Source: Sinohyriopsis cumingii
Lineage: Eukaryota > Mollusca > Bivalvia > Unionida > Unionidae
Direction: 5' to 3'
NCBI GenBank assembly: GCA_028554795.2
Contig: CM068830.1
Location: forward strand, 110,559,214 to 110,623,213
DNA length: 64,000 bases
Shown: positions 25,730 through 53,861 of the stretch, in pieces
Position numbering within the stretch: position 1 is the first letter of the stretch
Layout of the letters: the number at the start of each line of letters is the position of its first letter
Program-made: the position numbers and the translations under genes
The notes under the pieces: model-generated
What the model was told of the DNA's origin: nothing
Database searches by the model: none
What the model saw: only the letters and a program-made list of their open reading frames with translations

Positions 25730-26165
25730 AGTAGTAAGGTGGGGCACCGTAGCGACAATGGGAATTAGCATTACAAGACCCCATGGGCTTGTTTAGCGAC
25801 AATGGAAATTTAACATGGAGAAAAATCGTGGGCTTGTTTAGCGACAAGGGGAATTAACATGGAGAAAAATTGTGGGCCTGTATAGCGACAAGGGAAACTT
25901 AACATGGGAATAAATCGTGGGCCTGTATAGCGACAAGGGAAATTTAACATGGGAATAAATCTCGGGTCTGTTGAGCGACAAGGGAAAATAGGGTCCCGAC
26001 CTGATGGGTCTATGGAAAGGGAACATACGAAAATTGAAATAGGGAGGGGTCTCCATTTTTTTTTGTTGAAAAAACAAATAAAATAAAAAAATAAAAAATA
26101 GGGTTGGCAATTGAAAGTAGATCTCTTTTCAAGAAATTGGAGTGGTCCTGAAAAGGGCCTTTGGG
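25730..26165 (+). repeat. Element 2 terminal inverted repeat, left
   Basis: Inverted copy of 44502-44928. About 25785-26000 consists of five tandem ~45-bp units (GGGCTTGTTTAGCGACAATG then TTAACATGG...). Its inner edge (26121-26159) is a histone-type stem-loop plus purine element on the minus strand, so the TIR supplies a 3' end for the leftmost gene. Confidence 0.95.
26121..26159 (-). terminator. Histone-type mRNA 3' signal, site B (left TIR)
   Basis: On the minus strand the stem-loop GGCCCTTTTCAGGACC (26159-26144; one mismatch) is followed by ACTCC and, exactly 14 nt after the stem, AAAAGAG (26129-26123). It lies 53 bases behind the stop at 26213. Confidence 0.8.
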
Positions 26166-26212
26166 TTTCTTCTGCTTCTTCCACTATTTCCTCCATTTCC
26201 TCATCCAGCCCC

Positions 26213-26758
26213 TTATCTTTCCCAAAATTCCTTTGTTCTATCTCTTTTCTTTTTCTGTAACCATTCTGGGTGACCCATAGCCCTGAACTTCTCTTGTATC
26301 TTGATCCAATTTTGATTGACTTTGTCAAAGGCCTCTTTCTTCTTTATTTTTTCCTTATCCTGTCTTTCTTGACTCCATTTTTCTTTTATCTTTTTTACCT
26401 CTTCAGTCATCACTTGTTTCATTATTTCCTCTCCTTTTTTCAACCTGTCCAGTCCCCTTTTTACATATGACAACTCCGTCCAATACACTATATGTTCTAG
26501 GAAGCACCGGACTTGGATGACATAATCCAGTGCTTCCTTCAAACTCCCCACTCTGACATAAGGTGGGTCAATAAATCCTCTTGACTTGTTGACTTCATCT
26601 TCTATCATTCTTTCTATTATATGTCTGGCTGCCTTTTGACGTTTGACTTGACTGGTTACCAAGTGTTTTTTATCTTCATACTTCCATTCATTTTGTATCC
26701 TTTCTATAACATATTCTGCATCCATCACCCAGAAATAGATATGCCTCAATTGCGTCAT
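26213..26758 (-). CDS. Charged helical protein, founder of a repeated family
   Basis: A 181-aa, highly charged, coiled-coil-rich protein from an ATG at 26758 (MTQLRHIYFWVMDAEY). It contains RHIIERMIEDEVNKSRGFID and a long Lys/Glu tail. A degraded second copy lies at 26923-27160, and two further short genes to the right share its promoter repeats and 3' signal. The stop is followed by the histone-type signal in the TIR. No enzyme motif is seen. Position next to the terminus and the multigene pattern suggest accessory, perhaps early, genes. This frame is intact. Confidence 0.62.
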   Translation of the reverse strand: MTQLRHIYFWVMDAEYVIERIQNEWKYEDKKHLVTSQVKRQKAARHIIERMIEDEVNKSRGFIDPPYVRVGSLKEALDYVIQVRCFLEHIVYWTELSYVKRGLDRLKKGEEIMKQVMTEEVKKIKEKWSQERQDKEKIKKKEAFDKVNQNWIKIQEKFRAMGHPEWLQKKKRDRTKEFWER

Positions 26759-26820
26759 CTTGTCTAGATTATTCTGTAGAATGGTGCGAACAACGAACGT
26801 TGTGGGTTCTTATAGTTAAA

Positions 26821-26917
26821 GCGCGGACGTGAAGGAAAACATCTCCTAAGACACAAAATTGATATTACCTAGATCATAACCAAACAACGCGCGGACGTGA
26901 AGGAAAACATCCCCTAC
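26821..26917 (-). promoter_or_regulatory. Paired CGGACGTGAAGG promoter boxes, set 1
   Basis: Two copies of a conserved box (core CGGACGTGAAGGAAAACATC) at 26821-26848 and 26889-26917, 68 bp apart, upstream of the gene at 26213-26758. The pair recurs before each accessory gene on the left side of element 2. CCCCTA follows copy 2. The promoter role is inferred from position and spacing. Confidence 0.6.
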
Positions 26918-26922
26918 TTTTA

Positions 26923-27160
26923 TTATTTCATATTATCTATTTTATTGTCCCCACTCTGACATAAGGGGGATTTATCAGCCCTCTCAGTCTCTTCACTTCT
27001 TCTTCGATTAATCGCATTATCATCTCCGTGGCTAATTTTAGTTTGTTCAATCTCTTTCAATCCTTTCAACTCCATATTCCCCATCCACCATCCAAAAATA
27101 AACATTCCTTAAATTGTTAAACAATTGGGAAACTTCCATCTTCGTTTTGTTTATTCCGTG
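26923..27160 (-). pseudogene. Degraded copy of the 26213 gene
   Basis: The phrase NNLRNVYFWMVDGEYGVERI matches the N-terminus of the 26213-26758 protein. It soon shifts frame into a Lys/Glu/Asp-rich stretch that ends near 26923. There is no own 3' signal, and set-1 promoter boxes follow immediately. This is a truncated tandem duplicate. Confidence 0.65.
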
Positions 27161-27202
27161 GAATGGTGCGAATAACGAACATTGAGGGTTCTTATAGTTA
27201 AA

Positions 27203-27297
27203 GTGCGGACGTGAAGGAAAACATCCCCTAAGACACAAAATTTATATTAATTGGATCATTACTTAAAACGCGCGGACGTGAAGGAAAACATCCCCTA
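27203..27297 (-). promoter_or_regulatory. Paired CGGACGTGAAGG boxes, set 2
   Basis: Copies at about 27203-27230 and 27269-27297, 66 bp apart, upstream of the degraded copy. Spacing and flanking bases match set 1. Confidence 0.6.
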
Positions 27298-27523
27298 CTT
27301 TTATCATTTCATATTATCTACTATCCACATACAGCAGCAATAAACAAACCCCAAATCTACTATCCACACATGCAAAGCATTAAAATTAAACCCAAATCTA
27401 CTATCCACACAAACTTACTTGAGCGCTTACAAACAAACACACACACACACACACACAAATTAAAAAGAGTCAGTGTTTATATTCACACTTCTCTACATAC
27501 ACACATTGGCAAATCGATTACTA

Positions 27524-27561
27524 TTTCTTTTCTAGAGTATTGGGTAGCCCTGAAAAGGGCT
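27524..27561 (-). terminator. Histone-type mRNA 3' signal, site C
   Basis: On the minus strand, perfect stem-loop AGCCCTTTTCAGGGCT (27561-27546), then ACCCA, then AAAAGAAA (27531-27524) exactly 14 nt after the stem. It lies 28 bases behind the stop at 27590. Confidence 0.85.
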
Positions 27562-27589
27562 GTTTGTTTTGCACTTCAGGGACACCTGG

Positions 27590-27904
27590 TTAATGATGGC
27601 ACCTTCCAGGCCTGGCACCACACACACATCTTCCCCAGTCTCCTTTCATTCTTTTTGGGGGGAGAGCAGAGGCAGGATAAGTGGCTTCAGAACCCCAATC
27701 TTCTGTCTCTGGGATTCTGAAATTTCCTCTCTCCTTTCCTACCTCTTCTTTGTTTCTTCTCTCCTCCACTTCTTTGTTTCTTCTCTCCTCCTCTTTCATC
27801 CTTCCCTCTTCTACTAGGGTCTCTGCAGCCAGCTCATTCACTATACACCTGGCATATTCCAGGTGTACATGAAGTTCAAGCAGTTTAGCTAGTCTGGTGT
27901 TCAT
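27590..27904 (-). CDS. Short Glu/Arg-rich coiled-coil protein
   Basis: About 104 aa from the ATG at 27904 (MNTRLAKLLELHVHLEY). It has an N-terminal helix, then a repeating EERRNKE coiled-coil stretch and a Pro/Gly/Cys-containing tail. The start resembles that of the gene at 28592-28875 (shared LAKL). It has set-3 promoter boxes upstream and histone-type signal C downstream. Function unknown. Confidence 0.55.
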   Translation of the reverse strand: MNTRLAKLLELHVHLEYARCIVNELAAETLVEEGRMKEEERRNKEVEERRNKEEVGKERGNFRIPETEDWGSEATYPASALPPKRMKGDWGRCVCGARPGRCHH

Positions 27905-27970
27905 TCTGGTGGTGTTGATCAATCAACAAGGGTAGCTAGACTGCCGAACGATTTTTAATTTATGCTAAAA

Positions 27971-28063
27971 GCGCGGACGTGAAGGAAAACATCCCCTAAA
28001 ACAAAATTGATATTACCTAGATCATGACCAAACAACGCGCGGACTTAAAAGAAACACTCACTG
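27971..28063 (-). promoter_or_regulatory. Paired CGGACGTGAAGG boxes, set 3
   Basis: A full copy at 27971-27998 and a degenerate one at 28036-28063, upstream of 27590-27904. The next 300 bases (28064-28380) hold ~60-bp repeats built on ACTATCCACAAACGCAAAGC. Confidence 0.55.
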
Positions 28064-28079
28064 ACTTTTTTATACTACC

Positions 28080-28330
28080 CATCACTATTCTAAAAAAATT
28101 TAATTAAATCAATAATATACTATCCACAAACGAAAAGCATTCAAATCAAACCCAAATATTTACTATCCACAAACGCAAAGCAGTCAAATCAAACCCTAAT
28201 ATTTACTATCCACAAACGCAAAGCACTCAAATCTAACCCAAATATCTACTATCCACAAACGCAAAGCAGTCAAATCAAACGCTAATATCTACTATCCACT
28301 CACGTCAAACAGCAAGAAAACATCATAATC
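28080..28330. repeat. ACTATCCACAAACGCAAAGC tandem repeats
   Basis: About four to five imperfect ~60-bp units with TCAAATCAAACCC and AATATCTACTATCCAC words, related to those at 27310-27410. Confidence 0.8.
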
Positions 28331-28434
28331 TACTATTCACACTAACTTACTCGAGCCCTTACAATCACACCAGAAATGAGTGAGTGTTTATATTCACACT
28401 ACTCTACATACACACATTGGCAAATCGATTGTTA

Positions 28435-28472
28435 TTTCTTTTCTAGAGATTGGGGTAGCCCTGAAAAGGGCT
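28435..28472 (-). terminator. Histone-type mRNA 3' signal, site D
   Basis: On the minus strand, perfect stem-loop AGCCCTTTTCAGGGCT (28472-28457), ACCCC, and AAAAGAAA (28442-28435) exactly 14 nt downstream. Flanks on the far side repeat those of site C, showing the module was duplicated. Confidence 0.85.
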
Positions 28473-28591
28473 GGTTCTTTTTGCTTGCGTCAAGTTGAAG
28501 CTAGGGCCATCTTTTAGTTTCTAAGAATGCGACGTCCTCTGATGATAGACGTTCTGACGATAGGTCTGCTTCTTCGGAAAGAGAAGAAGAA

Positions 28592-28875
28592 CTATTTGGT
28601 GTCGATACGACAATCGACAAAGCCTCTGTCAGGTTCAGGTTGCTGCTGCTGCTGCTGATGTTGTTGTTGCTGTTGCTGCTGTCTCTTAAGTCTGTACTTC
28701 TCTGTCCATTTTTCCTTCTCCCTGTTCGCTTCTTCTCTGAAGAGCTCTTCTATCAGGTCTTCAGTGACTTTTAACATTCTCACATTCTCTATTTCTTCAG
28801 GCTTCGGTATCAGACTGTGTCTGACCCTATGCAAATTCACGTAGGCTCGTTTAGCTTAGCTAGTGTGGAGCACAT
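28592..28875 (-). pseudogene. Short helical protein with poly-Gln run, frameshifted
   Basis: The best start is an ATG at 28875-28873 whose frame (MCSTLAKL...) soon meets a stop; the rest reads in another frame as an ~80-aa charged helix (ENVRMLKVTEDLIEELFREE) ending in a Gln-rich tract coded by CAG/CAA repeats. One indel near 28840 is enough to explain this. It belongs with the other accessory genes by its start, a CGGACGTGAAGG box at 28942-28968 and site D downstream. Confidence 0.5.
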
Positions 28876-28941
28876 CTTCGTAGAAGGATGAGTCGACAAT
28901 GAATGGTTTGACTGGAAACTGCCCCGGTTCTAAAAGTCAAA

Positions 28942-28968
28942 GCGCGGACGTGAAGGAAAACATCCCTA
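28942..28968 (-). promoter_or_regulatory. CGGACGTGAAGG box, single copy
   Basis: One copy of the accessory-gene box, upstream of 28592-28875. The interval 28969-29346 beyond it is AT-rich 3' flank of the protease gene with nothing else seen. Confidence 0.5.
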
Positions 28969-29346
28969 CACGGTTTTCGAGCCGGAACCTTTAATGAGTG
29001 TCATGAGAGAGATAGAGAGAAGTCAAAACGCATGAATCAAAATTCTTATAGCCAAACAAAATACAAAGACATTTTTTTAAAAACGCAACATTTTTTATTC
29101 AAAATCACAACACTAACAAACAACACTAACATTTTTAACAATAATCCAACAATATAGCATCAAACATTTTTTTTCAAATGCCTAATATTTGTTTTCAATT
29201 CACACATTATTTTAGACAGGGCTGACAACGTTGTGAATGAAATTGTGATTTCCACTGTTGGAAGTCATTAGGCCATTGATGGACACTACGTTTCCTAGCT
29301 TGAGACAAAAGATAAGCATAATGGTCACAGAACCATTGATCTACTT

Positions 29347-29760
29347 TCACATCTTTCTAGAAGAAGAACGAGGATCAAAATGAGTTACTAAATGTTCTAA
29401 GGAATAGCCCAGGCTGCGATGATGCAGAAAATACATGCAATATTGTCCACACACCAAGGAATCTGTGCCTTGTAATTTCACATTATTGAATCGGGTGGTC
29501 TGAGCATTTCTTCTTATAAAGTCAATGATATCGCCTTCCAGAATGGGCCATCCATAAGAATCGAAATATTCCACACATCCTTCTTGAGGAAAGTAGACAG
29601 CTACCCAGTGGGTTCCTGGAAGATGACTGTTGTCCGTGTTGATCACATAAACTTGATGGCCTTGATGTTTGCGATGAGGGAGTTCATCTTTAGCACAGAC
29701 GATAGGATTCCAAGAAGCAGTGTACGAATTGTGGTTCAAAGGTAATAAAGTTCCCAGGTA
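29347..29760 (-). pseudogene. Adenain-like maturation protease, start disrupted
   Basis: The catalytic pattern is complete: His in LPGTHWVAVYF, acidic YFDSYGWP, and Cys in LVCGQYCMYFLHH. It resembles the element 1 protease in order and spacing but is the canonical animal Polinton form. No in-frame ATG is found; the frame opens without a start after a nearby out-of-frame ATG (MDTWEL...), suggesting a 1-base shift near 29740. It would mature the capsid. The gene closes the leftward virion block. Confidence 0.85.
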
Positions 29761-30237
29761 TCCATGTTTTGTTTCGTTTGTTTCTTCTTCTTCACAGGTA
29801 ATAATAAGTCATCAATTCGATCCTGAATTTTTGCTTGAAAATGTCTGACAAATAAACGTTTCTTCGCTTCGTCTCCCCACTCTGATTCAGGAGAGCTTCG
29901 ATACGATGGATCTCTTGAGTGGTTAATGGTGGACAAAATGTTCACGCAAGTCTTTATACCACTGATGCAACACGTCTTTGTTCGAGATGAGACTCCAAGC
30001 ATCGTCCAGATACTCGTCCAATTTTTCTTCTTGACTCAACATCAGGCATTTATCGTGTTGAATTTGACTGGGATGATCGTTTTGACATCCATAGCAATTT
30101 TTCTTGATTAATTCCGTAATTTTTTCGACCAAGTGTTTGCCAAAACAGGAGACTAAATGGGCTTCTTGTTCTGGCCATCTTGACTTCATCATGATCACTT
30201 CTTCTTTTTCCACGGTCTCCTCACATTTCATGTCCAA
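29740..30237 (-). pseudogene. Recurrent Polinton CYGCQ protein, frameshifted
   Basis: The first frame (30237 leftward) includes LIKKNCYGCQNDHPSQIQHDKC, written here in part as CYGCQNDHPSQ, a phrase conserved in a small uncharacterised protein of canonical animal Polintons encoded next to the protease. The frame changes around 29930-30000, where a second ORF continues. The Cys/His content suggests metal binding. The role is unknown. Confidence 0.6.
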
Positions 30238-30281
30238 AGTTTATCCACTAGGTAAAGAGGGATAACAGTCTTCCATGGTTT

Positions 30282-31599
30282 CTAGTAATCTAGGATGACT
30301 TCTCTCAAACTGTTGATTTCTATCGTATTATCGAATTCTGCATACAGGATGACGTTCACCGTTTCATCAGGGTCTCGGTCTTTAAACTGAATTTCCACAC
30401 GAATCTGGCCGGATTTTATAGGGTGGAAATGTCCCTCGTCGCTGCCTTGGTCTGGAGTGAAATCAAAAGCCCACAAAGCACAGCCTCCTGCGTAATCTTC
30501 GTACGTAATGCCGTGACTGGTGTTGGTTCCTAACTGCCCAGTGGCTTCGTACAAGGACAAGTACGATCTCAAGTAATTCAACTTCGTGGGATCAAAGTCC
30601 GGTTCGAAAGGTCGGGTACATAAGGTCTCGCCATCGCGACTGACTTCGATTTTCTTCACAAAAAAAGTGATCAAAGTTGAAAGGATTTTTATCGACAACT
30701 CCGTTGAAGGCTGAATTCAGGACCATACCAAGGATTAAACGTTTGGGTAACTGTCCTTGAAACAGATGATCTACGATCATGGATTGATGGTTAGCGGGAA
30801 TGGTGAACGTTTTCACTTCCACACGTCGTATGGGATAATTGGCGGTCATTCTGCTCAACGTTTGACTGATATCGTTACCCACTTTAGGTAACACTTCCAC
30901 GCGTCGTACGTAGAGCCTGGCTTCCTCGATGTCAGTTTTGCAAGCAGCATTACCTATCAAATGGAAAGCGGCACTGCTACGGTTCAGTCTCAGGTGGATA
31001 TTCACTCCGTGCAGCAAATACTTCTCTTGCAACCACATGTACAAATGCAAGCGATCCATCAGTTCTAAACTACGACTTTCAGCAATTTTCTTTCTTCGTT
31101 CTAGAAAGCCATCATTGTTGGTTTTCTTTTCATCAATTTCGAATTCTTCAAACTGGCCTGCATCGTCAGCTTCCCATACCACACAGGAATTGAGATGAGT
31201 GTTCTTGGCGTCTATTCCGTACGTCAAGAGATTTTCCAGGTATGCTCGATAAGGGTAAGTATCCATGCTGCTGCTAAGCAGTTTGTTATTCAAGTACAAG
31301 TCCACTGAGCTGAACAAGGAATGCATGAAATTGTTGACGGGAGCTATTACCTCATCACTTTCTATGGGCGTATTGTCATTCTCCTTAACTTTGACTTTCA
31401 AGTACAGGTAACTGCTATTCAGATCGATGTAATCTTCGGGTTGTCCTTTGATTTCAAACTCGATGGGAGCGGAATCTGTCAATGAGGAGGCGGGGTGAAA
31501 TTCCACCCATTGGGATTCTTGCATGGTCATCATGGTAGGTGGCATGGCAAAGAGATCCAGTTCCGACTTGGAACAGGCACAATACTCTCGGTGCATCAT
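30282..31599 (-). pseudogene. Major capsid protein (double jelly-roll), one frameshift
   Basis: The N-terminal ORF has MPPTMMTMQESQWVEFHPAS, DTYPYRAYLENLLTYG and NYPIRRVEVKTFTIP, hallmarks of the canonical animal Polinton MCP (often annotated F54H12.2-like). The C-terminal ORF carries the second jelly-roll end (EDYAGGCALWAFDFTPD, FDNTIEINSLREVI). The two overlap near 30660-30690, where a run of A on the plus strand (about 30659-30667) marks a one-base slip. The start is probably the ATG pair at 31599/31596. It forms the capsid hexamers. Otherwise well preserved. Confidence 0.93.
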
Positions 31600-31612
31600 T
31601 TTCTTCTGTGTC

Positions 31613-32038
31613 TCAATCATCAAAAACGTCTAAGTCTCGAACGGTTCTTCTTTTCTTTGTCTTTCTAGCTTTCGAAGTGTCAAGTCTGGTGAAAGGATGT
31701 TTTCTTCGTCGTCTCTTTCTGCCTTGTCCTTGCTGAATGCCTGACTCGGTAGCGTGCAGAGCATTTATAGGAGTTTCTCGTCGGCCCAAAAGGTCTTTAC
31801 CCGTTTGCAGCAAGACATTTTTGCCTGCCCTCAAGAAAGCTTCTTTGGGGTTTTGTTTGTCGATGATGACATTTTGGAGAAATTCTTTACCGTGTATCAG
31901 TGCCGCATCTTTCAAGGCGTGCAATCCGCGTGTCACCATCGGTTTCAGCACCGGAGCCACCGAACGAAAGGCTGATTTCAACATATCTCCTAAACCGTGT
32001 CCTCGCTGTCGAGCAACCCCTCGGTACACTGGATACAT
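31613..32038 (-). CDS. pX/core-like minor virion protein
   Basis: A 141-aa basic protein, ATG at 32038, ending just before the MCP start. The N-terminus MYPVYRGVARQRGHGLGDML is followed by amphipathic helices, and the C-terminus has a strong basic run (GRKRRRRKHPF). This is a standard gene between minor and major capsid proteins of canonical Polintons, likened to adenovirus pX/pVI precursors; the GLGD phrase is shared with element 1. Probably cleaved by the protease and involved in DNA packing or membrane passage (inferred). Frame intact. Confidence 0.82.
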   Translation of the reverse strand: MYPVYRGVARQRGHGLGDMLKSAFRSVAPVLKPMVTRGLHALKDAALIHGKEFLQNVIIDKQNPKEAFLRAGKNVLLQTGKDLLGRRETPINALHATESGIQQGQGRKRRRRKHPFTRLDTSKARKTKKRRTVRDLDVFDD

Positions 32039-32041
32039 GAC

Positions 32042-33640
32042 TTACGAATCGTGAGAGAACCGTTTTCGAAAATGGAGTTTCACCTTGACTTTCCATTTGG
32101 TGAATGGAATATTTTGTCCCAAATCTCCTTTTATAGCAATGTTGACCGTGTCCAAATAAGACTTGCTGACAGGCAAATAATGATGATGTACAAATTCGCG
32201 GTGAACGTGATAAGTGTTTCCACTTTCCTGGTTATTGTTCTTGGTACTATCCACTTTGAAAGGAATGACACGCAGTAACGGTACGGAGGTGTGTCCCACC
32301 ACGTTGTACTCCACCACATCGGAGTACACGAAGATCAAATTGAGTCCCTGGTTCAGTTCTACCGGGAAACGAAAATACCTCGCAAAATGCCCGTTGTTGT
32401 CAATGTCTGCTTTCCCAATCCTTTTGGTATCCTTATCCGTGACCATATTGAGGTCTCCACCCAAAATGTCATACAATTCAGGGCAAAATTTAATACGTAT
32501 ACTTTTTTCCTCACTTTCAAATTTGATGAGGAGACGATGAGACACTTTGTGGTTCTCAATGGTGACACGTGTTTTCAGTCCGGTCAGAACTTTGTCAAAT
32601 GTTGCATAGAATTTGTCAGCGATTACCTCCACCACATGTTGACCACTAAAATAATGGCCTGGGTTAATTTTAAAGTGATAAACGTAAAAAGGAGGAGAAG
32701 TGTCACGGCTGCGAGGTAGTAGCTCCTTCGCAAGAAATGATCTATGTTTATTCGTGGTATTCATGGTTTGCTGCACCGTTGGTTCCAGAATTTCGACGTC
32801 AAAAATGTTTTGATTTTCAGTGATGTTTTTGATCTGTGTTGTTTCAATCATTTCTACCAAAACCACTTCCCAATGGGCTTCGTGATCTAATGGGATGGCC
32901 TGAGGTAATTTGGCCGTGTAACAGCACAACGTGTTGTTGGGAAACACCCCCATGGAACTGTCACTGGGTAAGGTTACTTCTTGCGGGGCACGTCCATTGC
33001 TTCGATGGTAAGATTGGTTGTACGCTTGCACCAGGTGCGGTAAGATGTCGATGTACTTCAGAGTGTGGTGATGCGTAAAATATTTCCACATGCGTTCTTT
33101 CAAAGTGCATTGAAAACGTCCCACGATGCTGGCTTTGGTTTCAGGATTCTCGGTGGTAAAAAAATGAATGTCACGTATCTTTAATTCTTTTTGGAAAGGT
33201 TGTTTCAGAAATTCGGTACCTTTGTCCGTTTGCCATCGAAGAGGGTGACGACCGCTTTGTTTCAACACCCGTCGCAGGGCTCGCAGTAACTCGCTGCTCA
33301 ATTTGGATGTCAAGGGCACGAACCAGGCAAGTTTGGAAAAGACGTCGATGACAAAAAACAAATATTTGTACCCGCGATTGTAGCTGGCCAAGTCAGAGAC
33401 ATCGGCTAAATCGGCTTGCCATTGATGATCGATGCCTTCCACGTGGGTGCGACTTCTGGAAAACTTCCGTCGAATGGGTTCGTGTAAAGTGTAAGTAGCT
33501 TGTTCTTGTAACCATCATTGCACTTGACGTAAACGGAGACTTTTCAGTCGAGTTTTGGCAGCACGATACAATTTTTGATCTCCTGCGTAACCTACAGGAT
33601 GGGATGGATCGTAGTAAATGCTTGCTAAGACTTTTTCCAT
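32042..33640 (-). pseudogene. Integrase core joined in frame to minor capsid protein
   Basis: The N-terminal integrase part starts MEKVLASIYYDP at 33640 and has a TGA at 33517-33515. The core then reads WQADLADVSDLA (first Asp) and WQTDKGTEF (second Asp), but the position of the catalytic Glu is Gly (SIVGRFQCTLKERM). After SYHRSNGRAPQ the frame passes straight into the minor capsid protein: LPSDSSMGVFPNNTL, YSDVVEYNVVGHTS and the beta-rich end. The integrase SH3-like/chromodomain tail is missing. An in-frame deletion most simply explains the fusion, since element 3 keeps that tail before its own minor capsid gene. Confidence 0.88.
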
Positions 33641-33738
33641 TTTTTGTGTGTTAATAAGGCACCCACTCTTGGAAGATGCTACTCTTTTTCTCTTAGGGTA
33701 TTTTCTTGGATTGTAATGCTTTGCGTGTGCGACCGGCA

Positions 33739-34278
33739 CTAGGTGTCGAGGAGGAGAAGAATGCCTGAACAGGGGATATTTTTTCTTGTTTCACTTCTGT
33801 CTTCACCTTCTTTTTTCTCTTCTGATGAAGAAGGGGTGGTCATCATCTTTTTAATCCATCCAATTCTGGATGTAGGTGGTGTTGTTAACTTGCATACTTT
33901 TTCTGGTGGAGTTTGAAACCCTTCATCTTCTTCTTCTCCTTTTTCTGTCTTGGGCACTGGTAGTAGTAGTGGTGGTGGTGGTGGCGATGGTGCTGGACTT
34001 TTCATCAAGATCTTAAAATCTTTCAGAGTGGGAAGAGCTGTTTCATCTAAAGCTTTTTGGTGAAAGAGTTGCAGTCGTTGCAAGAGTTGGCCGTACTTTT
34101 GCGATTTTTCTGTTTCGGACAAATCTTGGCGATCCATCAAGGTTTGCAATTCGTGTTGTAACTGGGACATTTCGATCAAATGGGGATTGGAAGGCAAATG
34201 CGGGGTGCGTTGTTCTTGCCAACGATGGTATTCCATCCATCGTTTGTAAGGCACTAAAGCTAGTTTTCGTCCTTCCAT
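33739..34278 (-). pseudogene. Recurrent Polinton ALVPY-type protein, C-terminal frameshift
   Basis: From the ATG at 34278: MEGRKLALVPYKRWMEYHRW, then a helical region (SQLQHELQTLMDRQDLSETE), then a Pro/Glu-rich linker with a run of Pro. Proteins starting with this ALVPY phrase recur in canonical animal Polintons between ATPase and integrase; the function is unknown. The annotated end runs into an unrelated frame; the other frame offers a basic SAGRTRKALQSKK end, so a one-base shift near 33780 is likely. Confidence 0.6.
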
Positions 34279-34326
34279 GGGATGTCAAGGGTCGATTCTG
34301 AGATCTTGGGACTCCAGAGGGCCTTT

Positions 34327-34728
34327 TTATCTTGCTCCCATCAGTCCTCCCAACATGGTTCCCAAGACTCCTTTCAGTAAGGGACCTAACAAGAGGGGTA
34401 AAATTCCTCTACGTTGGACCAACATCTTCTTCATTTGTCCGAGGGGGATTTTCTTTTGAACCATTTGGCGAAGAACGTGACGATGTTTACGTAAGCATTG
34501 TTTCTAGTGTTTGGACAAAGGAATCGTGCCTTTCAACACGTTCAAACAACATTCGCACATGGTATCGATGACCTCTTTGGAGGCCGACTGAATGAGTTTT
34601 TTTCGTAGGGGTGGAGAAGCCTTGGACAGGACAGAAAACATGTCCCCATGTTTGACTAAACGTGGAGGCAGTCCTTTCCTTTTCCTTCCTTGGGGTTTAG
34701 AAGAGGAATGTTTTCTGGAGGGTGACAT
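34327..34728 (-). pseudogene. Recurrent Polinton small basic protein, in-frame TAG
   Basis: Frame of 133 codons from ATG 34728 to TAA 34327, interrupted by a single TAG at 34506-34504. The first part has LVKHGDMFSVLSKASPPLRKK and CECCLNVLKG; the part beyond the stop ends in a hydrophobic GPLLKGVLGTMLGG helix. This is a small protein widely conserved in canonical animal Polintons, with a membrane-active-looking C-terminus. Both halves are in phase, so a base substitution is the only defect seen. Confidence 0.68.
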
Positions 34729-34777
34729 CTTTGAGTCACCAAAACCACTGATGCCCCTACTTGGTCACAGACCTTTT

Positions 34778-35744
34778 TTATACTGGAACCCGTCGCCACT
34801 GATTGTCTTGACGTCGTATCAACTTGATGACAGGCATGACACGTCGTGCAGGGGTACGCAACGGACTAAATCGAGCCAGTTCTTGCTTGGACAAATCCAA
34901 TAAACTTTGTAACATGCCCGATCTCTCTTGGACTTTGATTTTTGGAGCAGGTACTTTATGAGCCGCGGCCACTGCCGATAAATGGGAAGGTCCTGCCACT
35001 GGGGAAGTTCTTGGGGTCATCAACGGAGAAGTTCTTGGTGTGATCAACGTCTCCAAATACTGTTTAGTTCTTGGTGTCATCAACGAAGAAGTGACTGAAC
35101 CTGAGGCTACCGGAGATGCGGTCACCACCGTGGCAGGTCGTGGTTTGCGAGTGTAAGGTTGAGTTCTGGCCGAAGTGCCTCTCTTGCGACTAGTTTTCTT
35201 CTGGGGGCTTTTCTTTTTCTGGGGAATTTTTCTCTGTTTCTTTTTCTGGGGGCTTTTCTTTTTCCGGGGTGGTGTCTGGTAAGAGGAGGGTCCCGCCATT
35301 GGAGAAGTTCTTGGAGACACGGGTCTCTTTGTGGACCTGGTCTTTTTCTTTTTCTGCTTGGAGCTTCGTTTGACTTCTTTTTTTTTTCTTGGGGAGAACT
35401 TTGGGAGCATTAGGATCCCTTCTTAAGAGAGAGCGAATGATGACCCCACCTAGAGTACCGCTCCCTCCAGGTTTCAATATGATTTGTTTTTTGGTTTGAG
35501 TGTCGATGCGGGGATCGGCCAGTTGCGTGAAAGCGACTTTGTTTCGATAGCAAAAGCGTTTGGTTTGATGAGGAATCTGAATGATCCCTTGGTGTAATTG
35601 ACGTGCTGTCACCGTGAACCATCGTAAGACTTCTTTGAGACTAGCTTCTAAGACACGAGCCCGTATTTGTGGATTTTTTTCTCGACTGATGCCATACAAG
35701 GCACGAATCAATTTGACGGGAAGATGTGGTTGACGGGACGTCAT
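34778..35744 (-). pseudogene. Basic virion/core-type protein, frameshifted
   Basis: A first ORF from ATG 35744 (MTSRQPHLPVKLIRALYG) encodes a conserved ~90-aa helical region recurrent in Polintons, ending GGSGTLGGVIIRSLLRRD. A second overlapping frame to 34778 is very basic (PRKKKEV, SPQKKK, TPRTSP repeats) and ends in a helical segment. The frame switch falls near an A/T-run around 35380-35400. It may be one DNA-binding core-type protein, or two genes; I cannot separate these. Confidence 0.5.
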
Positions 35745-35800
35745 GTTCACACTGTGTGAGACAGGCGAAAAGTGTGTGACGTTTTTATCGATGTTTTGGG

Positions 35801-36518
35801 TTAGGTCGAGGAAGGAGACGTGTACAGGACAGGCCCTCCGTCTTGACACCAGTGGTGAAACAATTGGGTACGAAATTGCAAATCATCGGGGGTCGTAGAT
35901 TTCAAATCGACGAGTAAATAGGCGTGTGGAGTGTGAGTGGCATCGTCGTACGCCTGAGTCAGCCAAGGCGTTCCTAACTGTTTGGCTAAGACTTGCACTT
36001 GACGATTTATCTCGAGGGCCTTTAAACAAGACCACGTAATGCGCATTGAGACTAATGGTGCGATGGGCTTTACTTTGTTGAAACAAATTTTGATTGATGT
36101 AAACGACACTGTCATTACGATGATGCCCTTTGCGCGTGAACCACAGTTTAATTTCTTCTTCGTCTTCTCCTAACATGTCGTCAAAAATGACCAAATGGGT
36201 TTGACGGGAGTCAGAGACGATGCCATCGTCTTCTTTAGGAATGCCTTCCACAAGCACGGTGGAATCGCCTTGACTTTATCGCAAGAGGCTGTACGCCGAT
36301 TGCCACTCTTAAAACACCACACGATGCGTTGAGGTGGTTGATTGATAAATTATTTTATGTTCGATCAAACGTTTGACAAATTCGGTTTTGCCTGAGCCAC
36401 TAGGTCCAGCAATGAGCATGTTAAAGGGATGGCGAAGATACAAAGCCTCCCAACTGGCACGATCTAAGTGTTCGTCGATGACTTTGACAGTAGAAGAAGA
36501 GGGAGCAGAAGTAGCCAT
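35801..36518 (-). pseudogene. Genome-packaging ATPase, frameshifted
   Basis: From ATG 36518 an N-terminal ORF has Walker A GPSGSGKT (residues ~38-45). A second frame has Walker B HLVIFDDM and FKGPRDKSS; a third frame supplies the end (LAKQLGTPWLTQAYDDATH) to 35801. At least two indels (about 36260-36310 and 35990-36030) break the gene. The protein is the canonical Polinton packaging ATPase and is homologous to that at 951-1616. Confidence 0.87.
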
Positions 36519-36785
36519 AGTGTGAGGAATGTCACTTGTGACACGAAAACAAACAAGACAAGAGTTTATATACTTTTTTCAGGACACGTTTATTGAATGT
36601 TTTAAACACAAATACGAAAGACAAAAATATATAAAAGCCAAAGGCTTAAGTGCAACGATAAAAGACACATCGAAATTATCAACGCGGAATAGAAAAAAGT
36701 GTTTGTACAACATGTTTTGGGTAAGGTTCTGACCAGTTCTATAGGGGGTAAGGTCACACAAGTGTCCTCCCGAAAGAAGGGTCTT
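36519..36785. other. ATPase 5' flank and 3' end of the 36786 gene
   Basis: Contains a possible TATA element for the ATPase (minus strand) and, for the leftward gene at 36786, an AATAAA signal on the minus strand near 36588-36593. No gene seen. Confidence 0.45.
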
Positions 36786-37325
36786 TCAGGCATGTTCACG
36801 ACAGTCAAGTCCTAGTTGATGAGTTCTTCTTCTGGCACCGTCACTGACACAGGTTGAAAAGTGTCTTTTTTCCTTGAGCAACTCTCGTGCATACTGGGCC
36901 ACTTCTTTTGTCCAAGCCTCAAAATCCCATTCTTTCCAGGCACGGACATCTGTCCAATGGGGGTGTAAGTCACAAGCTACACACACATCGTCATACACGT
37001 CTTGGGTAGCTAAAAGTTGACGAATCTTTTTTCCCGTAGAGGTCGAGAAGTATCCAGATGAAACCGCAAGGCTTTGAGCAAAAGGAGTCTTTCGTGACAA
37101 TTTAAGGCCATTGGGTGGTAAGTACTGATCGTAAAGAGACCACAAGGAATCGGCTGATAAACGAAATCCTAGAAAACAAGTCACTAAGACACACACCACT
37201 TGTCGACCCAAATTGAATGGATACAGTTCTTGTAATAATCGATGGTAATGATCCACGGTTTCAATATGGTCATTGAGTTCCTTCCACGGAATCTGGTCAA
37301 TCACATGTGATAAAAGTTGTGGCAT
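36786..37325 (-). CDS. Accessory protein of unknown function
   Basis: A 179-aa ORF from ATG 37325 (MPQLLSHVIDQIPWKEL). It contains VVCVLVTCFLGFRLSADSLW, a DVCVACDLHPHW Cys/His patch and a charged C-terminus. The composition is protein-like and the frame is intact, but I do not recognise the family. It lies beside the duplicated gene family and BIR gene, in the accessory zone between ATPase and PolB. Confidence 0.5.
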   Translation of the reverse strand: MPQLLSHVIDQIPWKELNDHIETVDHYHRLLQELYPFNLGRQVVCVLVTCFLGFRLSADSLWSLYDQYLPPNGLKLSRKTPFAQSLAVSSGYFSTSTGKKIRQLLATQDVYDDVCVACDLHPHWTDVRAWKEWDFEAWTKEVAQYARELLKEKRHFSTCVSDGARRRTHQLGLDCREHA

Positions 37326-42599: not shown

Positions 42600-42732
42600 C
42601 TTGAGTGAAAAACGTCAAATGACTAAAGTTTAAACACCATGGGCTTCTTTATAGTCATGGCAGACCAGCGTATATAAAGGGTGTGTGTCTTGTCCTTTCA
42701 CTATTCATTTCACTCTCTAACCGAGCACAACG
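42600..42732. promoter_or_regulatory. Divergent promoter between PolB and CCHC gene
   Basis: Two oppositely oriented TATA boxes: TATATAAA at 42671-42678 for the rightward CCHC gene (start 42733) and TATAAAG on the minus strand at about 42645-42651 for PolB (start 42599). Spacing to the starts is about 50-60 bases in both directions. Element 3 keeps a related sequence near 54588. Confidence 0.7.
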
Positions 42733-43173
42733 ATGGAAGAGACTACCCAAATCGAACGTTTCATCAAAGCTTTGCGATGGGTCATTAGAAAATTTTCTTC
42801 AGACCAGCCTTCGGACTACTCTCCTTCCTTGCGAGATAAAAGTGAAGATACTTGCTATATCTGCCAAAAGAAAGGGCATTGGTCTTCAGAGTGTCCAGAC
42901 CGTCAAAAAAGCAAACAAAAAATGGTTAGAAAAGACAAAAGTCGAGATACCTGCTATCATTGTCAAGAAAAAGGACATTGGTCTCCAGATTACCCAAAAA
43001 AGAAACAAGAGGAGTCAGAAGAAGAAGAGAGGGATTCTTTAGAGAAAGAAGAGGAAGAAGAAGAGCAGAAAGAAAGTAGACAGGTAAAGAAACAGGAGAA
43101 GAAAAGAAGAAGGGAAGAAAGTGAGGAGGAAGAAGAGGAAAAGACTGTGACTGTGAAGAAATTTAGAAAATAG
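42733..43173 (+). CDS. CCHC zinc-knuckle protein with acidic tail
   Basis: A 146-aa protein. Two zinc knuckles: DTCYICQKKGHWSSECP (residues ~41-57), complete, and DTCYHCQEKGHWSPDYP (~73-89), where the last Cys is Tyr. The C-terminal 55 residues are a Glu/Lys/Arg-rich coiled coil. Such knuckles bind single-stranded RNA or DNA, as in retroviral nucleocapsids and cellular CNBP. A ~54-bp internal duplication explains the second knuckle. TATA box 55 bases upstream; an AATAAA at 43267-43272 suggests ordinary polyadenylation, unlike the convergent neighbour. A relic copy exists in element 3 (54060-54577). Confidence 0.78.
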   Translation: MEETTQIERFIKALRWVIRKFSSDQPSDYSPSLRDKSEDTCYICQKKGHWSSECPDRQKSKQKMVRKDKSRDTCYHCQEKGHWSPDYPKKKQEESEEEERDSLEKEEEEEEQKESRQVKKQEKKRRREESEEEEEEKTVTVKKFRK

Positions 43174-43408
43174 AGAGAGTGAAAAAAATGAGACAGAAGA
43201 AGTATATGAACTTTTTTAGAGTGATTTGTTGTGAATTGTAAATTGGATTGTAAATATTAATCAAAGAATAAATTAATTATAAAACGTAAGTGTCTTTGGG
43301 TTTTTGATTTTAAAATAAGAACCTACACTCACGCACTCATACACAGACACGTACTATAGGGGTAAAATGGGTTGGTTTTTTTTGAGTTATTGGCAATTGA
43401 AATTGTAT
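43174..43408. other. 3' region between convergent genes
   Basis: Holds the CCHC gene's AATAAA (43267-43272) and AT-rich DNA, and leads into the histone-type signal of the opposing gene. No ORF. Confidence 0.55.
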
Positions 43409-43445
43409 CTCTTTTCGAGAGAAGTGGGTGGCCCTGAAAAGGGCC
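43409..43445 (-). terminator. Histone-type mRNA 3' signal, site E
   Basis: On the minus strand, perfect stem-loop GGCCCTTTTCAGGGCC (43445-43430), ACCCA, then AAAAGAG (43415-43409) exactly 14 nt after the stem. It lies 20 bases behind the stop at 43466. Confidence 0.88.
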
Positions 43446-43465
43446 TTTTTGGTGAAGGGGTGAGT

Positions 43466-44020
43466 TTAAGCAATCAACTTTAGCTGCCTTAAGCTTTTGC
43501 CACGGCCAAGGCCTACTTCGGATGATGATGATTTGGATGAAATCACTAAGGGTGGTACGGTAGACTTAGTCACAGGGCTGGAGTGTTTAGCTCGGGAAGG
43601 TCGTATTCTCTTCGGTCGTGATAAAGAAGTCAGATACATTTCTTTCAGACTTCTTAACTCCGCTAAAATGTCCAACAGTACCGTGACGGTTTGACTTTCA
43701 CCCTCTTGTTTCTTTGCTACTTCTTCTTCTTGCTGTTGTTTTTTTACCTCTTCTTCTTGCTGCTGTTGCTGTAGAAGAAAAGCCTGTTCTGCTTCCTTTT
43801 GCTGCTGCATAAATTTCTCCAATTCTTCTTTCTGTCTCTGTCGAAAATTCTCCATGTGTGGTAATGAAGGAGAAGGTGACAAAGGTTCTGGAACAAATTC
43901 TTGCGAAGTAAGAAAATCCACATAATCCCAATTCACCTCTTCTGAAAGTTAGTCAGGGTTCCCTTGTGAAGTTTTCACGGCTGGTGCACCCCAATGGATC
44001 GTTTTCTGAGTTTCCGTCAT
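43466..44020 (-). pseudogene. Gln/Glu coiled-coil protein, in-frame TAA
   Basis: The natural start is probably the ATG at 44020 (MTETQKTIHWGAPA), in the same frame as the longer ORF but stopped by a TAA at 43951-43949. The body has a Pro-rich N-terminal part (EFVPEPLSPSPSLPHMENF), a long Gln/Glu coiled coil, a leucine-rich VTVLLDILAELRSLKEM helix, and a Ser/Lys-rich basic tail. The leucine helix and tail are the parts best kept in the element 3 copy (53300-53790), so they are likely functional. It ends in histone-type signal E. Function unknown. Confidence 0.65.
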
Positions 44021-44254
44021 GTTGAAAAACTGTCGCATGAATTGACTGCACACAGGCGATAGTAAATCTATATATAGTAAATCTATATAGACTACGTGAC
44101 GTCACAGACTGCTCTCTTCGGATTGGATGTGGGCTGACTGAATTTTGTAACGCGTGTTTGGATTGGTCAACGAACTAAATCCGTTTCAATCCTTGCTGTC
44201 CCTATAAATAAGCGCAGTTCACTGTATTGATTCACCTGTTCTCGGCGCCTCAAG
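44021..44254. promoter_or_regulatory. Bidirectional histone-like promoter
   Basis: Between divergent genes at 44020 and 44255. Rightward: TATAAA at 44203-44208, about 47 bases before the ATG, with ATTGG (inverted CCAAT) boxes near 44120-44126 and 44160-44165. A palindromic CRE, TGACGTCA, lies at 44097-44104. Leftward: a TATATATAG region near 44070-44076. CCAAT plus TATA spacing resembles core histone gene promoters. Confidence 0.65.
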
Positions 44255-44485
44255 ATGTGGACCGACGTTCAATCTTCAACCCTTGTGTCAACAATGATAT
44301 TCAGGACGGACATACCCATGTATGTCCGATCCAAGTGGATCGTTGTCCATAGGACCACCACCAGCCTATGGATACGTAGGATTTACGTGGAGAGGCAAGG
44401 ATGCCTTAAAAGAGTGATAGTTTACGGTCCTACACTGAGACGAGGTTTAAGGCGAAGAAAATGTCGCAGATGCCCTTTATGTTAA
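44255..44485 (+). CDS. Small Arg-rich protein with histone-type gene structure
   Basis: A 76-aa ORF (MWTDVQSSTLVSTMIF) ending in a strongly basic RRGLRRRKCRRCPLC tail, with a predicted beta-rich middle. It is the rightmost gene of element 2 and reads outward to the TIR. A TATA box with ATTGG boxes lies upstream and the histone-type stem-loop starts 22 bases behind its stop, so the whole unit has the form of a histone gene. The protein is not a recognisable core or linker histone; a protamine- or core-protein-like DNA-binding role is possible. Intact. Confidence 0.6.
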   Translation: MWTDVQSSTLVSTMIFRTDIPMYVRSKWIVVHRTTTSLWIRRIYVERQGCLKRVIVYGPTLRRGLRRRKCRRCPLC

Positions 44486-44501
44486 GGGCATATTAACATA
44501 A

Positions 44502-44928
44502 ACCAAAGGCCCTTTTCAGGGCCACTCCAATTTCTCGAAAAGAGATCTACTTTCAATTGCCAACCCTATTTTTTATTTTTATTTTTATTTATTTTTTTTA
44601 TTTATTTATTTTTTAAAAAAATAGAGACCCCTCCCTGTTTCAATTTTCGTATGTTCCCTTTCCATAGACCCATCAGGTCGGGACCGTGTTGAAATAGGGT
44701 CCCGACCCTGTTCCATTTTCCCTTGTCGCTCAACAGACCCAAGATTTATTCCCATGTTAAATTTCCCTTGTCGCTATACAGGCCCACAATTTTTCTCCAT
44801 GTTAATTCCCCTTGTCGCTAAACAAGCCCACGATTTTCTCCATGTTAAATTTCCATTGTCGCTAAACAAGCCCAAGGGGTCTTGTAATGCTAATTCCCAT
44901 TGTCGCTACGGTGCCCCACCTTCCTACT
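44502..44928 (-). repeat. Element 2 terminal inverted repeat, right
   Basis: Mirror of the left TIR with the same ~45-bp tandem units (about 44700-44880) and the same inner-edge histone-type signal, here on the plus strand at 44508-44544. An extra GGTCCCGACC-rich spacer near 44680-44710 distinguishes it slightly. Confidence 0.95.
44508..44544 (+). terminator. Histone-type mRNA 3' signal, site A (right TIR)
   Basis: CCAAA, perfect stem-loop GGCCCTTTTCAGGGCC (44508-44523), ACTCC, then AAAAGAG (44538-44544) exactly 14 nt after the stem. This is the clearest of the six sites. Confidence 0.9.
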
Positions 44929-44934
44929 GACCAT
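44929..44934. other. Target-site duplication, right (GACCAT)
   Basis: Exact copy of 25724-25729. Confidence 0.93.
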
Positions 44935-50624: not shown

Positions 50625-50975
50625 CTAATTTGAAAACAAAGCCATCGCAGTTTAGACTTTTCTGTATTAACTAAGACAAGTAATCTTTAGATCTCTTAAC
50701 GCGAATAAGGGTCCCCTATGATCGAACCTGAATCCGAAATCCACATATTATTAACAAGCCCTAGGGAACCTAACTACAAACTCTAAATTGGGGCTTCAAG
50801 AGACTATAAAGAACGATGGACGTGCAGACGGACCAGTCGACAAAGACTCGGCTGACGTGACAAAACAAATATACCTGATGTTTCATACAAGCAGGTAGTA
50901 TGAAAGCATTATCTTAAACTTAATAATCATGAACACTTAAATACTTTATAAGTATACTGTGGGGCTTTACTACAG
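50625..50975 (-). repeat. Dispersed repeat, copy B
   Basis: Inverted relative of 18529-18880, interrupted at its left by the SINE at 50300-50622. The two copies lie 32 kb apart on opposite strands, flanking element 2. Confidence 0.8.
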
Positions 50976-51228
50976 GTTCATTGACAGTGAGAACGTTTGG
51001 CTTACTTGATACAGCAAAAAAAAAAAATTCTTATCTCTTGTCGTCACTTCACGAGCAGTATTTTATTGAAATTGTAATAAACGCCCTTATAACAAAACTG
51101 TACAGTTGCAACTTACCTCAGATGCTTGAATATTTCGCCTCCAACCTACAGCAGTCTATCCACAATAAACGCATCCAGTCAAAACGAGGCACCCAGATGA
51201 CCAATTCGTCAATTTAAATTTCCATATA

Positions 51229-51458
51229 ATAAACCGAGATCTCGGATTACTAAATCGAGATCTCGGATTAGTAAACCGAGATCTCGGATTAGTAAGTCGA
51301 GATTTCTGATTACTAAAGCGAGATCTCGGATTAATAAAGCGAGATCTCGGATTAGTAAACATATCTCGGATTACTAAAGCGAGATCTCGGATTAGTAAAC
51401 CGAAATCTCTGATTACTAAATCGAGTTCTCGGATTAGTAAACCGAGATCTCAGATTAC
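51229..51458. repeat. ~22-bp satellite with CGAGATCTCG palindrome
   Basis: About ten units of AAACCGAGATCTCGGATTAG, each containing the 10-bp palindrome CGAGATCTCG (some with one change). Confidence 0.92.
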
Positions 51459-53299
51459 AAAATTTGTGAAATGTATCCCTTCACGGGCTCCGTACTCTTC
51501 TTTTATGAAAAAGGATTTATCCACCAGCTTGTATGAGATAAAATGTCTCATAACTCTTGGTCAAGCTGTTTCCATGACCCGATAGAGAGAGAGAGAGAGA
51601 GAGAAGGAATGTAGAAGTTCAATCCTCTTGGAAGAGGTGACACTTTGACAACGAAGATATGGCTACATCGGGGGAATTTCAGCAAGCGGAGGTACGGGAT
51701 GCTGTAAAGACAGAAGTCTCTTTGAGTTTCTGGCGAAGGAACTTTTTATTAAAATACTCGACATATAAAATTACATTCCAATATCAATCTATATAAACTA
51801 AAATTACAGATATAAGAGATTATTATTAAACTTCGATATTTTTTCACTTATCAACATCATACATTTGTAAAAGTTCTGCCTTTTAGAATATAATACAGAT
51901 AATTAAATATCGAATAGATTCGCGATAGCTAAAGAATTTAAAATTCAATATTTCAGACTAATATTGTAATTGAAATATATTTTACTGAATTTTTTCTGAA
52001 ATGTCAACATATTAAACTCTTATTTAAAAAGTATTTTATTTCTAAATTAACTATTACTGAATATGAAGTTGGTAGTGAACGTTGATTTTTACTATAATCA
52101 ATAATATAATTACAGTAAATATGTTCTTCAAACAATTAAACCTTCCAATACATTATATTAAAGAATAGTATTAACAAAAATAGTAAAATAATCAAATGTT
52201 GCAATGTACTGATGTTAGATTAACATCTTAACACTAAAAATCCATATACTATATGAAAAATTGTACATGGACGATAATCTTATCTGCAAAGACAGAAGTC
52301 TCTGAGTTTCTGGTGAAGGAACTGGAATGCCCGAGGATTGACGCTTTTTATATCAGTTTATATGGACAAAGCCAAATATGGATATAGTCAGGTTCTTGTG
52401 GACGCCAGAATCTCAAAGTGAGGCTTCATAGTTTCTTACAGCTAATCTTCTGGGTCTATGTACGTCATTAGGTAGACAATTCTGCAAGATCAGCTCATTT
52501 ACCCATCTTGAAAAATCTTAGGAATTCGTCTAGTTCATCTACCTACACAAATTATCGAATGTAGTTTTTTTTTTGCTGACTTTATGACACAAGGGAAATG
52601 TATGTATCAGACGGTTTTGCATTTTGTTTATAAGGGGCGCAATCTTTATTAAATAGCATATAATTGCAATACCGGAATAAACGGATTTAATCTCAATATA
52701 TTTTAAATGTAAATTACTTTCAATATAATTTAATAAAAAAATACTTATAATACAGTTTAGAGAAAATTTCAATCTTATTACTTTTACTAAAAAATTATGT
52801 CCTAATACTTCTATGAGGCTAATCAGAGCGAAAATTTTAGCAATGTAGCTCCCCTTGATAGAAATTAGTCCAGTTCGTGCGAATTTTGTAAAAAGTTCTT
52901 AAGTCGTAAGAAAGTCGTGTGAAGTATCTTAAGATACATATTCGCGAATTTCACACTTCTAAGAAACAAGATATAATTGTGCAATGTACAATTTTCGGAG
53001 GTAGGAACTACTTGGAAACGAATATACAGGTTTATAGATACATAAAAATGAACAATATAACATTGGGTACGAAACAACCATTGCTTTGGGTACGAAACGA
53101 CTCATTTTGGTACGAAACGACTTTCCATGTTTGAGTGATTGTTGTCTTTATGTGCTTGTTTGATAGTGCTGCTTCTTGCTGCTTGGACAGGCATATGAGT
53201 TTTGCTGGTTGTTGCAAGCTGATTTCATGTGAGGTTGCTTTTTGGCGTTTTGGTGGGGTCTCACCGGCTGTGGAGAAGACAAGTGACGGTATAGTAGCG

Positions 53300-53790
53300 A
53301 CTACTCAATTTCTTAGCAAGAATGTGTTCCTATACCAGTGCGTTCATCCACCATCTTATACTTTACCAAACTTGGAGAATTTTAAACAGTGACAGAAAGA
53401 ATAATTGGAGAAAATTTTACAGCAGCAATAGGAAGCAGAACAAGCTTTTCTTCTTCAACAACAGCGAGAAGAAGAAGAGGCAAGAAGGAAACGACAGGAA
53501 GAAGCATAGAAGAAACAAGGTCTAAGAGAGAAGAAGGACAATGAAAGTCAAACGGTCACGGTGCTCTTAGACATTTTAGCAGAGTTAAGGAGTCTGAAAC
53601 AAATGTATCATACTTCTTTATTATGATCGAAAAGAAAAATACCTTCCCGAGCTAAACAACACAACCCTGTTACTATGCCTGCCATATCACTCCTAGTGAT
53701 TTCTACCAAATCATCATCGACAGGAGTCAGTTCAGAAGTAGGCCTTGGTCATGGCAAAAGCTTAAGGCAGTTAAAGATGATTACGTCTCA
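53300..53790 (+). pseudogene. Relic of the 43466-type coiled-coil gene
   Basis: In changing frames shows YTLPNLENF, a Gln/Glu/Arg coiled coil, VTVLLDILAELRSLKQM and a final LGHGKSLRQL-like end, matching the element 2 gene, with several stops and frameshifts. Followed by histone-type signal F. Confidence 0.78.
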
Positions 53791-53824
53791 TTCCTGAGTT
53801 TTTTTTAACAAACAAAATACCCAA

Positions 53825-53861
53825 AGGTCTTTTCAGGGCTACCCACTTCTCTCCAAAAGAG
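53825..53861 (+). terminator. Histone-type mRNA 3' signal, site F (degenerate)
   Basis: AGGTCTTTTCAGGGCT (53825-53840; one or two stem mismatches), ACCCA, then AAAAGAG (53855-53861) exactly 14 nt after the stem: the same architecture as site E, in an orthologous place. Confidence 0.72.

Follow-up and report, generated by a model that had tools for sequence, protein, structure and literature searches.

A Polinton (Maverick) family in the genome of the bivalve Sinohyriopsis cumingii very probably terminates five small accessory genes by means of the histone 3' signal of its host, whose SLBP and U7 small nuclear ribonucleoprotein (snRNP) would likely cut the transcripts into short, nonpolyadenylated mRNAs supplied in step with S phase. 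The family was studied from a 64,000-nt stretch of the 2.9-Gb genome (C7:110559214-110623213, called here the window), in which one 19.2-kb copy carries the five signals, A to E, each behind the gene of the same letter. What supports this reading is the structure of the signals, their recurrence behind the same genes throughout the genome, their likeness to the signals of the host's own histone genes, and selection on the product of gene A.

Histone-type 3' signals in the window Polinton

The signals of the window Polinton combine the 16-nt stem-loop of the Rfam Histone3 family (RF00032) with a purine element at a set distance behind it, two features of a replication-dependent histone 3' end. 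The original prediction had listed six such sites, A to F, as belonging to one family, and all six have the histone-type design at the positions it gave, with the purine element beginning exactly 14 nt past the stem in every case. Sites A to E indeed lie in the Polinton, whereas F is located outside the element, in a second, decayed inverted copy of the same family in the window. F gave no Histone3 match at an E value of 5 or less, its stem contains a G-G mismatch (by eye), and ATTAAA or AATAAA occurs 61 nt downstream. Among the window sites, the Histone3 gathering score of 34 bits was passed by A and E only. A consensus scan of the window allowing up to two mismatches returned six matches against 1.36 expected, a number that no shuffle reached; these six include a site at 59303, outside the earlier list, and exclude F.

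The signals follow short open reading frames (ORFs), with stop-to-stem distances in the window copy of 22 nt (A), 53 nt (B), 28 nt (C), 119 nt (D), and 20 nt (E), in agreement with the predicted range of 20 to 120 bases. Likewise, one signal forms the inner edge of each terminal inverted repeat (TIR), as had been claimed: the homology between the TIRs, which are 429 to 438 bp long, stops upstream of stems A and B by 8 nt according to BLAST and by 5 nt, at the CCAAA lead, when judged by eye. The TIRs also contain repeated units (~25784-25990 and ~44715-44870), whose number apparently differs between the two ends.

Genome-wide occurrence and conservation

The signal is a trait of the family and not of a single copy. 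Across the genome, the pattern GYYCTTTTYARRRCY-N14-AAAAGA is matched exactly at 51,823 places and, when read backwards, at none, and a genome scan with the Histone3 model, in which 75 of 589,472 first-look places were scored, gave 75 of 75 above the cut-off (best score, 45.6 bits). Of 14 control genomes scanned in the same way, a single one (Lactococcus lactis) yielded a match, below the cut-off. We read 28 of the 75 scored loci (8 + 20) and collected all pattern matches in these loci and in the window, leaving out stem-loops too close to the end of a locus and a chance match in L026; F does not fit the pattern. The resulting 65 stem-loops form five classes (A to E) that are told apart by the sequence upstream of them. 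AAAAG stands exactly 14 nt past the stem in 63 of them, compared to 0.2% of mononucleotide-shuffled flanks, and in 36 of the 37 that are left once the loci's own Rfam targets are excluded. The stem is closed by a G-C pair in 45 stem-loops, by A-U in 16, by G-U in 1, and by an A-C mismatch in 3; the A-U form marks classes C and D and may go back to one ancestral change. Beyond the purine element, 59 of the 65 viral sites carry TTG[CT]C or TTGCA at 33 to 34 nt past the stem.

The original prediction had asked where the motif stands relative to ORF stops in other adintovirus/Polinton genomes. Among the 65 stem-loops of this genome, 52 begin 15 to 37 nt after the stop codon of the longest frame nearby and the other 13 at 53 to 144 nt, several of the latter behind visibly broken frames. 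For gene D, whose distance is long in the window copy, four of five other copies have 24 to 37 nt, and L027 has 140 nt. Since selection by the signal itself was to be avoided, we located the genes in the 28 loci by protein similarity to their tails. Every locus (28/28) holds at least one tail of gene A, C, D, or E. An intact stem-loop follows 14 of 16 gene E tails, 10 of 12 gene C tails, and 5 of 6 gene D tails (AAAAG at 14 nt in four of these six), that is, 29 of 34 combined, and the other five have a base-changed stem-loop in place. The signal was present in 18 of 19 gene A rows, with AAAAG at 14 nt in 17, although the gene A signal is often the locus's own Rfam target.

Three other accounts of the signal were discarded: a chance origin by the Rfam scores, the spacing, and the contrast between forward and reversed patterns; a one-copy oddity by the genome scan, the five classes, and the number of matches; and an insertion inside a histone array by the gene tails present at every locus.

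The first 100 of the 51,823 matches, all on one chromosome within its first 3.2 Mb, give a rough idea of the size of the family. Among these 100, 98 have another match within 20.5 kb, and 20 neighbor pairs are divergent at 1,087 to 1,127 bp, near the spacing of A and E in the window. The share of divergent pairs leads to a rough figure of ~10,000 A/E ends genome-wide. This one animal genome thus apparently harbors thousands of copies of the family. The 51,823 matches suggest a copy number on the order of 10,000, and at up to 19 kb per copy the family could, by this rough reckoning, make up several percent of the genome.

Comparison with the host histone genes

A histone search scored 150 of 662 candidates, many of which lie in tandem repeats of ~8.28 kb. 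Given these 662 candidates compared to 51,823 signals, most of the signals probably do not belong to histone genes. In three stretches of the array (L068 to L070; repeat length, ~8.27 to 8.29 kb), five histone genes, named from their letters as H1, H2A, H2B, H3, and H4, carry the same 3' signal as the window Polinton, from which the array differs in its tandem histone genes. The host signals score 35.0 to 39.4 bits in the two stretches scanned. Their AAAAG lies at 14 nt in H4, H3, and H2B and at 15 nt in H2A and H1, their stem is mostly GGCCC/GGGCC, and the TTTC loop of the viral signals is the same as that of host H2B and H1. At 33 to 34 nt, a looser pattern occurs in the histone genes (TTTGTC, TTTGT, TTTGCC, TTGTC, and CTGCC). 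The likeness between the two sets of signals indirectly supports a putative complementarity of the Polinton signal to the host U7.

More generally, the Polinton genes have in common with metazoan replication-dependent histone genes the stem-loop, the loop, the spacer, the purine element, the short stop-to-stem distance, short intronless ORFs, and, for gene A, a TATA box with a short leader. They differ in that Pfam identifies no histone among their scanned products (B, C, and E) and in that they belong to a mobile element, where their neighbors include genes with AATAAA signals.

Products, promoters, and selection of genes A to E

Gene A is under purifying selection, with a median ratio of nonsynonymous to synonymous substitution rates (dN/dS) of 0.13 at a median dS of 0.95 among 17 intact copies. 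Constraint on gene E is weaker (dN/dS of 0.34 to 0.37 among 11 copies); genes C and B entered the selection analysis with three copies each. A TATAAAT motif precedes the gene A start codon by 52 nt in 17 of 17 copies, and TATATA precedes the start of gene E by 54 nt in seven of eight. By eye, the divergent A/E promoter (44069-44203) also contains a TGACGTCA site, similar to a cyclic AMP response element, and ATTGG boxes besides its TATA boxes. Pfam scans of proteins B, C, and E revealed neither a histone match nor an informative family.

Across 28 pairs of copies (from L005, L015, L016, L020, L021, L022, L024, and L030), as many as 46% of third positions differ in gene A, compared to 4 to 11% in the adjoining gene E. 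Copies of the Polinton look mosaic, as though the end with gene A and the TIR had been exchanged.

Gene E has 17 relatives at 59 to 81% identity, and gene A has two in other public data, one of which, P0139, is 74% identical. The frame of P0139 continues past the usual stop into ETQKPFSGPLTLLENIYYVNCQ; counted by eye, 14 of 22 residues of this read-through agree with the corresponding read-through frame of the window at site B. The codons of P0139 would fit AGCCCTTTTCAGGGCC, AAAA at 14 nt (followed by C or T), and CAATTGC at 30 nt, such that the read-through protein is in indirect agreement with an identical type of 3' end in this relative. When IMG/VR was searched with the capsid protein, with a capsid alignment, and with a gene E alignment, no relative could be confirmed. 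Two matches of an IMG/VR motif scan (L001 and L002) were judged to be chance, and a stricter motif gave none.

Conserved AATAAA signals in the same element

Two AATAAA signals of the window copy keep their context elsewhere in the genome. One lies 192 nt behind the ORF at 36786-37325, which is located in the stretch after the DNA polymerase B (PolB) gene, and TATATAAAC and the ATPase start come directly after this signal; the two 8-kb middles that share this context (L071 and L072) contain no match to the stem-loop pattern. The other lies 281 nt behind the protease match and recurs in L023, L014, L027, and L012; its string has no match in L028, and the L025 locus ends short of that position. 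It is thus likely that two classes of 3' end exist in the Polinton, with the AATAAA sites assigned to genes putatively. The original suggestion that the virus uses histone-type ends would accordingly hold for the five small genes A to E but not for the virus as a whole, whose polymerase and protease stretches have conserved AATAAA.

Structure of the window Polinton and its neighbors

The copy at 25730-44928 is a Polinton/Maverick, with TIRs, a target-site duplication (TSD), PolB, integrase, packaging ATPase, and protease (Table 1). The F54H12.2-like protein is taken here, from sequence likeness to a family with a capsid role, as the putative major capsid protein, and its named relatives are mostly from mollusks (Mercenaria, Ostrea, Saccostrea, and Crassostrea), with one from a sea urchin. 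Polintons/Mavericks and adintoviruses have in common with the element the TIRs, the 6-bp target duplication, PolB, integrase, packaging ATPase, adenovirus-type protease, and the F54H12.2-like capsid gene. PolB, ATPase, integrase, protease, and the F54H12.2-like gene are also the gene set stated for Mavericks (PMC9683012). An ORF with two CCHC zinc knuckles (42733-43173, forward strand) runs opposite to most genes, with TATATAAA at 42671.

The window contains a second Polinton at ~0.95 to 16.9 kb (951-16910), with a Pox_A32-like ATPase, a PLA2 domain, an integrase, a long helicase-bearing protein, an adenovirus-type protease, and a double jelly-roll-like domain; the Rfam scan of the window found no Histone3 match in it. 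A fragment of the endonuclease/reverse transcriptase type (PF14529) lies at 62902-63219.

Table 1. Features of the window Polinton and related sites (positions in the window; L followed by a number designates a locus; bit scores refer to RF00032)
Feature	Position	Strand	Evidence or remark
Signal A: histone-type stem-loop, 14-nt spacer, AAAAGAG	44503..44548	+	38.0 bits, E = 1.5e-7
Signal E: same design as A	43406..43450	-	38.0 bits, E = 1.6e-7
Signal C: design as A, A-U closing pair	27520..27566	-	33.5 bits, below gathering score
Signal B: design as A, one broken pair in window copy	26119..26164	-	29.4 bits, below gathering score
Signal D: design as A, A-U closing pair	28432..28477	-	25.8 bits, below gathering score
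Signal F: decayed, E-type position of second inverted copy	53825..53861	+	Outside the 25730-44928 element
Gene A: 76-amino-acid Arg-rich protein	44255..44485	+	TATAAAT at 44203
Gene E: long helix and basic tail, divergent from gene A	43466..43855	-	Shorter here than in other copies
Gene B: highly charged	26213..26758	-	
Gene C	27590..27904	-	
Gene D: apparently broken in window copy	28592..28777	-	Tail matched in 6 loci
AATAAA behind ORF 36786-37325	36589..36594	-	Same context in L071, L072
AATAAA behind protease match	29094..29099	-	Same context in L023, L014, L027, L012
Polinton copy, 19,199 bp	25730..44928	.	Inverted ends AGTAG(T/G)AAGGTGGGG and TSD read
TSD GACCAT, left, 6 bp	25724..25729	.	
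TSD GACCAT, right, 6 bp	44929..44934	.	
Left TIR, inner edge = lead of signal B	25730..26167	.	BLASTN 1-438 versus 1-429, 86.8% identity, 29 gap positions
Right TIR, inner edge = lead of signal A	44500..44928	.	
PolB, several broken frames here	39187..41908	-	Pfam PF03175, 8.3e-13 on 40239-41042; pieces match L071, L072
Packaging ATPase	36018..36437	-	tblastn 1.8e-9 with ATPase of other Polinton in window
Integrase	32984..33628	-	tblastn 2e-13 with other Polinton's proteins
Adenovirus-type protease	29380..29691	-	tblastn 2.7e-7 with other Polinton's proteins
F54H12.2-like protein, shorter here than most relatives	30592..31620	-	674 relatives, several named F54H12.2-like

Proposed mechanism and alternative explanations

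In mammals, SLBP sits on the stem-loop of the histone pre-mRNA, the U7 snRNP pairs with a downstream element (purine core, AAAGAG), and CPSF73 cuts between the two (PMC7026596). The Polinton matches the host histone genes both in these parts and in their order, and we infer that SLBP would bind the stem-loops of transcripts A to E and that the U7 snRNP would pair with their purine element, with cleavage between the two. The core genes would take the ordinary poly(A) route. The pathway implies S-phase timing, so that the five products would accumulate during DNA replication in the host cell; cleavage, absence of poly(A), and timing are all predictions. Of the original proposal of SLBP/U7 use, the sequence-level part is well borne out, since the signals are histone-type by covariance model, match the host array, stand behind ORFs in many copies, and accompany a gene A under selection, while the nonpolyadenylated state and S-phase expression stay at the level of prediction. 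A histone 3' end of the host was probably taken up by the family and then spread to five positions; the TIR partly keeps the two signals at the TIR edges alike.

Several observations weigh against this interpretation. Three of the five signals of the window copy (C, B, and D) fall below the Rfam gathering score. The loci that we read have some of the highest Rfam scores and are therefore biased toward well-kept copies, and, as the signals lie together within an element and the family copies are of common descent, the counts do not represent independent events. On the host side, RF00066 gave no U7, and a Sm-site pattern of the vertebrate/urchin type gave seven matches versus 18 in the reversed control, none of them convincing; an exon-by-exon search for the SLBP domain found none, but its control matched nowhere either. 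With regard to the two classes of 3' end, AATAAA also occurs elsewhere in the window Polinton, including after gene C and near gene B, and the only core ORF of the window copy with AATAAA within 400 nt is the one at 36786-37325. Finally, the base after AAAA in P0139 has to be C or T and its codons are assumed, and since IMG/VR provided no confirmed relative, species beyond this genome were hardly sampled.

One could argue that histone 3' ends were captured once and survive in the stem-loops as fossils, which are passively copied and have no present role in the element. The close likeness of the signals to those of host H2B and H1 and to each other would fit this idea, as would the two signals in the TIR, which are copied as a unit, and captured rRNA genes in related viruses have been judged likely nonfunctional (PMC12220804). 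Yet the signals mostly stand 15 to 37 nt after the stops of five different genes, in gene orientation, they are almost unchanged beside gene A copies that have diverged to the median dS given above, and the read-through protein of P0139 is compatible with the same end, which makes a purely fossil state improbable. Even harder to credit is a hairpin that acts on DNA, as an element of the TIR, of replication, or of packaging, rather than on RNA: two of the five signals do mark the inner edges of the TIRs, but the other three lie inside the element, all are oriented with the transcript behind ORFs and have the downstream purine element of a histone pre-mRNA, and the signal is common to the host histone genes. 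A different alternative accepts cleavage at the signal and departs from SLBP/U7 processing in S phase only in its purpose, which would mainly be expression in the oocyte or early embryo, where histone-type processing is abundant, rather than S-phase timing. In its favor, the spread of a family generally requires germ line activity, and roughly 10,000 A/E ends are estimated; we consider this account possible, if somewhat unlikely.

Relation to previous work and implications

Among the protein-coding mRNAs of metazoans, only histone mRNA is described as having a stem-loop end (PMC6303110), and as far as we found, a stem-loop mRNA ending is known to function only in histone messages. The claim that no Polinton had been described with such ends stands in part: our literature search, of limited reach, turned up no report of Polinton or adintovirus genes with histone-type 3' ends, and the sole related item is a count of six "histone 3'UTR stem-loop" (3' untranslated region) matches, given without comment, in a whole collection of Polinton-like viruses and virophages, which are viruses of protists, with none in 1107 cryptophyte elements (PMC12220804). 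In its RNA-family section, that report gives the bare count, without gene, position, purine element, or function, whereas here five gene ends per element were found in one animal genome.

From the sequences analyzed, it is quite probable that an endogenous virus family took over the histone mRNA pathway. Its five transcripts would then be the first known nonhistone class of stem-loop-ended, nonpolyadenylated animal mRNAs, its genome would be split into S-phase genes with a stem-loop and ordinary genes with poly(A), and tens of thousands of histone-type 3' ends would have been left in one host, far above the number of the host's own histone genes. If this is true, the family represents a natural second client of SLBP and U7, and a DNA virus would have a means of coupling selected genes to the replication of host DNA. 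RNA sequencing that selects for poly(A) would then miss transcripts of this kind. With so many signals in the genome, one may also ask whether they titrate SLBP or U7.

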